IMG/VR virus record: IMGVR_UViG_3300022689_000070
Location: 1 to 52,458 of that record
Reading direction: 5' to 3' (one strand)
Length of the DNA: 52,458 nt
Origin: a virus
This document shows, one piece after another, positions 16,143 to 52,367 of this stretch. The position numbers were made by a program, and so were the translations under genes. The notes under the pieces were generated by a model, which worked only from the letters and a program-made list of their open reading frames with translations, was not told the DNA's origin and made no database searches. Every line of letters begins with the position of its first letter. Position 1 is the stretch's first letter.

Positions 16143-16178
16143 ATGTCACCAGATGCTGCACAAATTCAATACCGGCAG
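16143..16178 (+). CDS. Major capsid protein, exon 1
   Basis: ATG behind GGAGG encodes MSPDAAQIQYRQ before an in-frame stop at 16182-16184, which is inside the intron. Joined to the codon GAA at 17100 it gives ...IQYRQ-EFIAGFEQHQ, which reads like the N-terminus of podovirus capsid proteins. The exact 5' splice site is uncertain. Ending at 16178 gives the best protein; ending at 16181 (AGT) would place the usual U before the site and add a serine. Confidence 0.7.
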
Positions 16179-17099
16179 AGTTAAACCTGCTGTAATCGAA
16201 GCTAAATAACTGGAAGGCGAAAGCTAACCAGATGGAAGGCCCCGAAGCGACAACACATTACGGCTTATGGGAGTGAACATGAACGAAACTTTAGTAAAGT
16301 ACCTTGCGGGACTACTCGATGCGGATGGCTGTTTGTCATTTACATTCAGAAGGGACAAAAGGGATAAATCAAAATACCATCTTGGTCTACGTTGTTATTT
16401 AGGAGCATCAGACACGGTGGATATAAGCGGATTTATACCATCTTTACCCGAGCAAACTGGTCTTGGCTCCGTGTATAAACACACAGATAAACACTATGTC
16501 TGGCAAACACAAAAGGCAAACGAACTCGAACGACTTTTGCCAAGAGTGATGAAGCATATGGTTATCAAAGCCAAGCACTGGAACTGGATGTACGAAATAT
16601 GGAGAGCAAACAAGCAAAGGTCTTACGGTGAAAGCTATATAACCGAGGACGAAATGGAGCAGTTAAAAGCCGCTTCAAAAACATCAAGGTCTGTTAATGC
16701 GGGTCCATTGAAACCTAAAAAACATCCAACATGGGCTTGGGTATCAGGGTATTTAGATGGGGACGGGTGGTATTTACACAGAAACCCGTCTAAGCATCGT
16801 TACGGTATGCACGTAGGTGCTACAGCACACAAGAACGACAAAGTTGGTCTTGAGTTATTACTAAAGGCATTCGGAGGCAAGATTAAAGTACACAATCAAT
16901 CAGACAACGTGCTGATATGGGAGCGTAGTTTAAGCAATGCCAATCGATCATTCGCTCTTCGGTTTTTGCCGAAGGTAGCAAAACACTCAAAGCTAAAGCG
17001 ACACAAGATTGAAATCATGATTTACCACCACCAGCAACGACTGAGTGCTTCGACATCTAAGGATGATGCGACAGTCTGACAATGTATTTACATTGATTG
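16179..17099 (+). ncRNA. Group I intron in the major capsid gene
   Basis: Core helices can be traced in the correct order. P1: CGGCAG (16173-16178) with CTGCTG (16187-16192). P3: TCGAAGC (16196-16202) with GCTTCGA (17047-17053). P4: CTGG with CCAG (16210-16213, 16228-16231). Paired AA joints lead to P5 GGC-GAAA-GCT (16216-16225). P7: GACTG (17039-17043) with CAGTC (17072-17076). P8: CATC-TAAG-GATG (17054-17065). P9: CAATGT-ATTT-ACATTG (17080-17095). G17099 is the likely terminal G. The endonuclease ORF sits between P6 and P7, and its end encodes P7, P3 and P8. Confidence 0.88.
16279..17079 (+). CDS. LAGLIDADG homing endonuclease (intron-encoded)
   Basis: The 266-residue product has two LAGLIDADG-type motifs, YLAGLLDADG (about residues 8-17) and VSGYLDGDG (about 154-162), so it should be a single-chain, two-domain enzyme. 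ATG 16279 is preferred because GGGAG lies five bases upstream; an ATG at 16267 is also in frame. It would cut intronless capsid genes and drive intron homing. Its last codons overlap the P7/P3/P8 core of the intron. Confidence 0.92.
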   Translation: MNETLVKYLAGLLDADGCLSFTFRRDKRDKSKYHLGLRCYLGASDTVDISGFIPSLPEQTGLGSVYKHTDKHYVWQTQKANELERLLPRVMKHMVIKAKHWNWMYEIWRANKQRSYGESYITEDEMEQLKAASKTSRSVNAGPLKPKKHPTWAWVSGYLDGDGWYLHRNPSKHRYGMHVGATAHKNDKVGLELLLKAFGGKIKVHNQSDNVLIWERSLSNANRSFALRFLPKVAKHSKLKRHKIEIMIYHHQQRLSASTSKDDATV

Positions 17100-17915
17100 G
17101 AATTTATTGCTGGCTTCGAGCAGCACCAGAGTTTGGTTCGTGATTCGGTTACCAATGAAGCGGTAATCAAGGGCAATCAGGCAACCTTTCTGGTAGCTGA
17201 CTCAGGTGGTGCGACCGCTGTTACTCGAGGTGTAAACGGCCTCATTCCAGCACGCGCTGATAACAACACTCAATCGACTGCTACCCTGCAGGAATGGCAT
17301 GACTTGGTCCGAAAGACCAACTTCAACATTTTTGCATCTCAGGGCAACCAGCGTGAGATCATGCAGAAGACCACCATGGCCGTGGTTAACCGTAAGATTG
17401 ACGATGACATCATCACCGTCTTGAATACGGCTACCAACGACACTGGTGCTGCAGCCACTGCTTCACTTCAGATGGTGATCCATGCTCAGACGATTCTGGG
17501 TAATAACGATGTTCCTTATGACGGTCAAATCTATGGTTTGATTACCCCTGCTTTCTTGGGCCGCTTGCAGATGGTCAAAGAGTTCGCGTCCGCTGACTAT
17601 GTCAAGAAGGCGCCTCTCGATGGTGATCAGGCTCAGTGGCGTGATGCTCCGGGCTACTACGTCTGGAACGGCGTTATGTGGATTGTACATCCGAACCTGC
17701 CGGGTAAAGGTACCAACGCTGAAAAGTGTTTCTTGTACCACCGCTCAGCTGTCGGTCACGCAGTCAACACTGACGGTATGGAGTGTCCTATTGGTTACGA
17801 CGAAGAGCAGGCTTATAGCTGGTGTCGTTGTTCCGTTGATATGGGCACAGTCTTGTTACAGAACTCAGGTGTCGCCGTGATGAATCACGACGGTAGTGGG
17901 TTCGCAGCTTCTTAA
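17100..17915 (+). CDS. Major capsid protein, exon 2
   Basis: This 271-residue segment carries almost the whole capsid protein: EFIAGFEQHQSLVRD, KGNQATFLVADSGGATAVTRG, LQEWHDLVRKTNFNIFASQGNQREIM, and a C-terminal SVDMGTVLLQNSGVAVMNHDG. These match a podovirus-type capsid family, presumably of HK97 fold. A TTG at 17097 could mimic a start but has no ribosome site, so splicing to exon 1 (283 residues in all) is the likely source of full-length protein. Confidence 0.88.
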   Translation, partial: EFIAGFEQHQSLVRDSVTNEAVIKGNQATFLVADSGGATAVTRGVNGLIPARADNNTQSTATLQEWHDLVRKTNFNIFASQGNQREIMQKTTMAVVNRKIDDDIITVLNTATNDTGAAATASLQMVIHAQTILGNNDVPYDGQIYGLITPAFLGRLQMVKEFASADYVKKAPLDGDQAQWRDAPGYYVWNGVMWIVHPNLPGKGTNAEKCFLYHRSAVGHAVNTDGMECPIGYDEEQAYSWCRCSVDMGTVLLQNSGVAVMNHDGSGFAAS

Positions 17916-52159: not shown

Positions 52160-52327
52160 ATGAAGCGTAATAGGGTATCAAGTATAGCTATCTCACAATG
52201 GGCTGTACTGAAAGCCACTCCTGCCAGTGGGATGATGCCTGAATATACTGGACGCTTCGCCAATGACAATGGGCTGTGTAGCTTAATGGTAAAGCTCACG
52301 TGTTTAAAAAAGGGGGCATCGCGTTGA
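52160..52327 (+). CDS. Possible small ORF overlapping the tRNA-like element, 55 aa
   Basis: The ORF MKRNRVSSIAISQWAVLKATP... begins four bases after the preceding stop and runs 57 bases into the tRNA-like element. The ribosome site (AGGAAC) is 11 bases from the ATG, a long spacing. It may be only a chance reading frame, but it would explain why the middle of the tRNA-like element does not fold normally. Confidence 0.25.
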   Translation: MKRNRVSSIAISQWAVLKATPASGMMPEYTGRFANDNGLCSLMVKLTCLKKGASR

Positions 52328-52367
52328 CCATCCTTGATGCAGGTTCGAGTCCTGCCACAGCCCACCA
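52271..52367 (+). tRNA. tRNA-like element with 8-bp acceptor stem, anticodon unassigned
   Basis: GGGCTGTG (52271-52278) pairs with CACAGCCC (52356-52363), followed by A and an encoded CCA. T-A and a canonical D arm (GCTT-AATGGTA-AAGC) come next, and GCAGG-TTCGAGT-CCTGC is a perfect T arm. The 43 bases between the D and T arms form no normal 7-base anticodon loop; AAGGG with TCCTT is the best stem. It is about 20 nt too long for a class I tRNA. It could be an odd class II, intron-containing or degenerate tRNA. Confidence 0.6.

Follow-up and report, generated by a model that had tools for sequence, protein, structure and literature searches.

Organization of the split capsid locus

The window, that is, the whole stretch of viral DNA analysed here, comprises 52,458 nucleotides (IMG/VR record IMGVR_UViG_3300022689_000070, positions 1 to 52,458). 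The locus under study extends from position 16,143 to 17,915 and carries the following genes and features:

16143-16178, plus strand: exon 1 of the major capsid gene (MSPDAAQIQYRQ), from direct reading and homology to the N-terminus of relatives
16179-17099, plus strand: group I intron of 921 nt, delimited by the homology of both exons, covariation of the core and a terminal G like that of relatives
16267-17079, plus strand: open reading frame (ORF) of a two-motif LAGLIDADG homing endonuclease, from Pfam, catalytic Asp and structure matches
17100-17915, plus strand: exon 2, the body of the major capsid protein (EFIAGFEQ...), matching phrog_3437 and Pfam Phage_capsid_2

Exon 1 possesses its own strong ribosome site, GGAGGG, about 7 bases 5′ of the ATG at 16143. 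Its codons run up to the CAG that ends at 16178, followed by AGT (16179-16181) and the in-frame stop TAA at 16182. The capsid body resumes at 17100, after an insert of exactly 921 bases. The ORF of this body opens at a TTG (17097) with an in-frame TGA just 5′ of it (17094), and no ribosome site precedes the TTG. These observations bear out the initial annotation, which had described a first exon with a strong ribosome site and an in-frame stop, a gap of 921 bases, and a capsid body devoid of a start signal.

Exon 2 alone matches phrog_3437 (major head protein) from profile position 18 onward (E 5.7e-66, 223.7 bits) and Pfam Phage_capsid_2 (E 3e-19). When exon 1 and exon 2 are joined, the phrog_3437 score rises to 234.5 bits (E 3e-69), spanning profile positions 9-293 of 294. 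Moreover, the alignment with intronless capsid relatives that the initial annotation had proposed as a check was carried out, and 78 of the 80 best capsid relatives match exon 1 plus exon 2 contiguously. Their N-termini are of the MADTAFQ(I/T)QYRQEFIAGFEQ type, with QYRQ-type residues running directly into EFIAGFEQ, and the empty sites of L005, L011, and others read CAATACCGGCAGGAGTT. Only two relatives deviate: L077 harbors a related intron, and L028 is truncated at a contig edge. Because the relatives are contiguous and the joined exons score higher, the gene for the phage's main shell protein is, on the evidence of homology, interrupted by the insert, and the split capsid gene of the initial annotation is thereby upheld.

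The insert contains a covarying group I core

Within and around the insert, the following elements can be paired:

16173-16178, plus strand: P1 5′ strand CGGCAG, the end of exon 1, pairing with 16187-16192
16187-16192, plus strand: P1 3′ strand CUGCUG, the internal guide sequence, 3 nt from P3 as are the guide sequences of relatives
16196-16202, plus strand: P3 5′ strand UCGAAGC, seven pairs with 17047-17053
16210-16231, plus strand: P4, CUGG (16210-16213) with CCAG (16228-16231), enclosing P5; from covariation
16216-16225, plus strand: P5, GGC (16216-16218) with GCU (16223-16225), GAAA loop; read directly
16233-16235, plus strand: P6 5′ strand UGG, pairing with CCA at 17031-17033
17031-17033, plus strand: P6 3′ strand CCA, within the endonuclease ORF; from covariation
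17039-17043, plus strand: P7 5′ strand GACUG, within the ORF; from covariation
17047-17053, plus strand: P3 3′ strand GCUUCGA, within the ORF; from covariation
17054-17068, plus strand: P8 hairpin, CAUC (17054-17057) with GAUG (17065-17068), within the ORF; read directly, with a P8 of variable sequence at this place in relatives
17072-17076, plus strand: P7 3′ strand CAGUC, next to the ORF stop UGA at 17077-17079
17080-17095, plus strand: P9 hairpin CAAUGU / ACAUUG, minimum-energy fold of -4.2 kcal/mol, with a near-identical stem and spacer in L330

All helices named in the initial annotation, P3, P4, P5 with its GAAA loop, P7, P8, and P9, were thus located in the window in group I order. The full pattern, consisting of the J3/4, P4, J6/7, and P7 motifs plus the 7-bp P3, has a single occurrence in the window and none in 200 dinucleotide shuffles. 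The intron 3′ end is formed by AUUG after P9 with a terminal G at 17099, as in relatives, while a P10 is not obvious in the window intron.

Relatives were gathered by ORF protein similarity alone, and 47 distinct introns were then checked for pairing. Nearly all ORF relatives share a common frame of a 7-base P3 strand, a J3/4 of the form T[G/A]AANAA, P4, a short P5, and a 3-bp P6, which continues with J6/7 GCA(A/C)(C/A), P7 GACU(A/G), the P3 partner, P8, the P7 partner (C/U)AGUC, and a P9 hairpin. For P3 and P6, whose 3′ positions were set from flanking motifs without demanding pairing, 323 of 329 cells (149 double-sided changes; shuffle mean 185, maximum 206) and all 141 cells (61 double-sided changes; shuffle maximum 94) are paired, respectively, and since the rows are related to each other, these shuffles overstate independence. 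P4 (187/188 cells, 32 double-sided changes; shuffle maximum 162) and P7 (235/235 cells, with the last pair alternating between G-C and A-U) weigh less, because the first base of P4 had a slight influence on the choice of its strand and the search itself had used the P7 motifs. The P3 (UCGAAGC/GCUUCGA) and P6 (UGG/CCA) of the window differ from those of most relatives, yet both pair. With core helices that covary far beyond shuffles, the insert is, by comparative analysis, a group I intron; family searches and intronless relatives agree with this assignment of the initial annotation.

A covariance search with the Rfam group I model, also proposed in the initial annotation, turned out differently. 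RF00028 (Intron_gpI), which is one model of group I introns and not a definition of the class, does not match the window at gathering or permissive thresholds, and it also misses the ORF-bearing relatives of the window intron. The model and the window intron have the P3-P9 order and the P7/J8-7 sequence in common, yet the window remains without a match. Two ORF-less relatives align with RF00028 below its cut-off of 50 bits, L094 over the full length (15.4 bits) and L285 in part (18.3 bits). The only Rfam matches in the window, at either threshold, were a distant tRNA and chance snoRNA matches. The tRNA-like gene lies at 52272-52363 (Rfam 47.8 bits); ARAGORN reads in it a four-base anticodon (ttaa) with no amino acid assigned.

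The ORF caller itself suggests another arrangement, namely a leader peptide, a free-standing endonuclease, and a separate capsid gene starting from TTG 17097, with no intron at all. Given the contiguous relatives, the unique group I core, and its covariation, we regard this two-gene arrangement as extremely improbable.

The endonuclease ORF extends through the catalytic core

The ORF matches Pfam LAGLIDADG_1 (PF00961) with 37.2 bits, above the cut-off of 23.1. It contains the motifs LAGLLDADG and SGYLDGDG, and the catalytic (last) Asp of both is invariant across 15 relatives. The profile of the endonuclease family further matches the structures of I-MsoI and I-OnuI. A two-motif LAGLIDADG enzyme, as initially annotated, is therefore encoded here. 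As the conserved start codon, ATG 16279 (MNETLVKYLAG), which lies behind GGGAG, is the probable choice. A search of bacterial and archaeal genome contigs did not recover the endonuclease.

The initial annotation had placed this ORF between P6 and P7, which does not hold as worded. The ORF begins in the P6 loop, but its last codons (Q-QRLS...ATV-stop) spell P6′, J6/7, P7, P3′, P8, and P7′, and its stop TGA (17077-17079) directly follows P7′. The accompanying proposal that the endonuclease C-terminus doubles as catalytic core RNA agrees with this layout. As most relatives examined end alike (QRLS...IV or TV), the overlap of ORF and core is a trait of the family and not of this phage alone. In ten loci (L104, L105, L111, L120, L122, L144, L147, L155, L156, and L158), an insert of about 60-150 nt in P8 apparently lengthens the endonuclease frame.

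The probable 5′ splice site departs from the U:G rule

Group I introns strongly prefer a U:G pair at the 5′ splice site; a U that ends exon 1 and pairs with G is usual and highly conserved, though not absolutely defining. Automatic splice-site assignment errs in the U or the frame for some relatives (L103, L107, and L121, for example), and the junctions of relatives quoted here were therefore taken by eye. Nearly all relatives with an assignable junction have a U as the final base of exon 1, and this U forms the last P1 pair with a G. In the window, no U:G P1 of at least four pairs was found near P3. The junction with the best support places a G, paired with C, at the end of the exon. The corresponding P1 encloses a loop of 8 nt, a common loop length in the family, and energy minimization returns this helix (-8.1 kcal/mol, a value reached by 4 of 200 shuffles). 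We treat the absence of U:G as a departure within the family, since the whole core is present and the relatives have U:G. We tentatively favour 5′ splicing at 16178/16179. Alternative sites at CAAU 16170 or CAUUG 17095 were discarded, because they would disrupt the frame or require an exon that ends in a base other than U.

Within the group I reading, splicing might instead occur after U16181. The intron would then measure 918 nt (16182-17099), the capsid protein would gain a serine (QYRQ-S-EFIAGF), and the junction would read CGGCAGAGT/GAATTT in place of the CGGCAG/GAATTT produced by splicing after G16178. Of the in-frame choices found, only U16181 combines an exon ending in U with an intron ending in G, and the junction of Pseudomonas phage HHBS10_2, AGU/GAA, supports it. 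However, U16181 sits in the P1 loop, the extra serine lowers the capsid profile score from 234.5 to 228.3 bits, and relatives with a readable N-terminus have no inserted residue there. We thus judge this variant rather unlikely, at roughly one chance in four, and retain the junction after G16178.

Because group I introns so strongly prefer U:G, reduced splicing is a live alternative. A G:C pair in its place could block or misplace splicing in a degraded or partly disabled intron, leaving capsid synthesis to residual splicing or to a start at TTG 17097. The lack of a U:G P1 of at least four pairs adjoining P3, which sets the window apart from nearly all relatives, fits such a copy, as does the TTG that opens exon 2. 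In contrast, the core, the ORF, and the catalytic residues are all intact, and P1 still has six pairs at the usual spacing of the family. Moreover, the capsid is essential, position 17097 has no ribosome site, and relatives with a readable start keep the N-terminal residues. A disabled intron consequently appears improbable to us. An assembly error may also lie at the 5′ splice site.

The intron belongs to a family found in major capsid genes

About 55 related viral introns, found via the endonuclease, show the same order and spacing. These loci were found without capsid information, L077 excepted. Every PHROG matched by the exon-2 translations of 56 introns (from L081-L161 and the window) bears the name major head protein, namely phrog_267 for 45 of the downstream exons, phrog_3437 for 22, and four others. 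As far as scanned, the family apparently is confined to capsid genes. Two family introns occupy one capsid gene in L094 (2535-3731) and in L128 (2300-3500). The first intron of L094 (about 175 nt) and those of L285 and L337 are devoid of an ORF.

Insertion points vary, and the capsid type of the window has at least four besides its own. They are located inside the Tyr codon of QYRQ (L077, L102, L103, L114, and others), between R and Q (L330), after EWH (L112, L117-L119), and after NQA (L120, L122). The insertion point of the window, after QYRQ, was seen in no other family member. Pattern scans for an intron at this exact site returned only L189 and L241, both at the neighbouring site, and searching for CAATACCGGCAG with the core after it gave chance hits only. 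In the truncated L330, the intron lies 3 bases upstream of the window's point and has a near-identical P9 stem. On a tentative view that we hold at distinctly less than even chance, the family would be an undescribed LAGLIDADG group I lineage specialised on major capsid genes, which moves among many points in several capsid families of podovirus-like phages, and the member in the window would have switched by 8 bases from the family's usual point in this gene, splicing after G:C and not U:G.

Many viral contigs without a 5′ core (among L263-L340) share a GCAACGACU...AGUC core but continue differently on its 3′ side (for example ACTCATAGGAAACTATGAGAGG...); they possibly represent another group I intron lineage.

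Proposed model of intron splicing and homing

Taken together, we are highly confident, from comparison with relatives, that in this podovirus-like phage, a mobile group I intron has inserted behind codon 12 of the major capsid gene. It presumably is self-splicing. The transcript would fold into the group I core, and a guanosine bound there would attack the 5′ splice site within P1. Exon 1, once released, would then attack the bond that follows G17099, yielding a ligated mRNA that would encode the full capsid protein, MSPDAAQIQYRQ-EFIAGFEQ. Unspliced RNA, in turn, would yield the two-motif LAGLIDADG endonuclease from the ORF in the P6 loop. This enzyme should cut intronless capsid genes near the insertion point, and repair would copy the intron in. 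The two exons, the core helices, and an enzyme family with intact catalytic residues and a presence in capsid genes only, as scanned, emerge directly from the comparison. That the transcript is spliced in the cell, that empty sites are cleaved, and that capsid synthesis depends on splicing are inferences.

Comparison with known phage introns

In mycobacteriophage LittleE, the major capsid gene contains a most likely group I intron of about 820 bp, together with a LAGLIDADG-related ORF; its splicing was proved by RT-PCR and protein sequencing, and a capsid intron in the lactococcal phage Tuc2009 is cited in the same paper (Pope et al, 2013, PMC3706429). LittleE thus resembles the window in having a capsid-gene intron with a LAGLIDADG-related ORF, whereas its ORF lies on the opposite strand and is I-CreI-like, the host phage is unrelated, and the final base of exon 1 is a U. 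ORFs of phage group I introns that overlap the core are likewise known (review PMC3984707; Bastillevirinae, PMC11878797). There, as in the window, the endonuclease ORF reaches into conserved core elements, but the enzymes are mostly HNH, GIY-YIG, or similar, with LAGLIDADG uncommon, and the introns mostly reside in genes such as those for DNA polymerase, ribonucleotide reductase, or terminase. As capsid-gene group I introns and core-overlapping ORFs have both been published, the arrangement is less exceptional than the initial annotation had rated it.

Thousands of group I introns, and also some LAGLIDADG genes, are present in jumbo gut phages (PMC12363816), and in the jumbo phage PhiPA3, introns are reported to help in competition during co-infection (PMC11620839). 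No description of this capsid-restricted intron family was found in the open-access papers searched, and the family is large, apparently undescribed, and present in uncultivated phages. With its constant targeting of a single highly expressed gene, such a family offers a natural system for studying target choice by homing enzymes, and it is equally suited to asking whether introns aid phages that compete during co-infection.

The cultivated Pseudomonas phage HHBS10_2 (PQ287653.1) carries an intron of the same family, with the same core, an endonuclease about 45% identical, and an insertion likewise in a major capsid gene. It differs in its capsid type and insertion site (FIES/EQYSKF) and in having a normal U:G P1. 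At this locus (L100:3834-5698), the intron is unannotated, the LAGLIDADG ORF is labelled an HNH endonuclease, and a minus-strand CDS has been placed over exon 2. The standard RNA model misses this family of about 55 introns, and missed introns mean mis-annotated capsid genes, as HHBS10_2 exemplifies.
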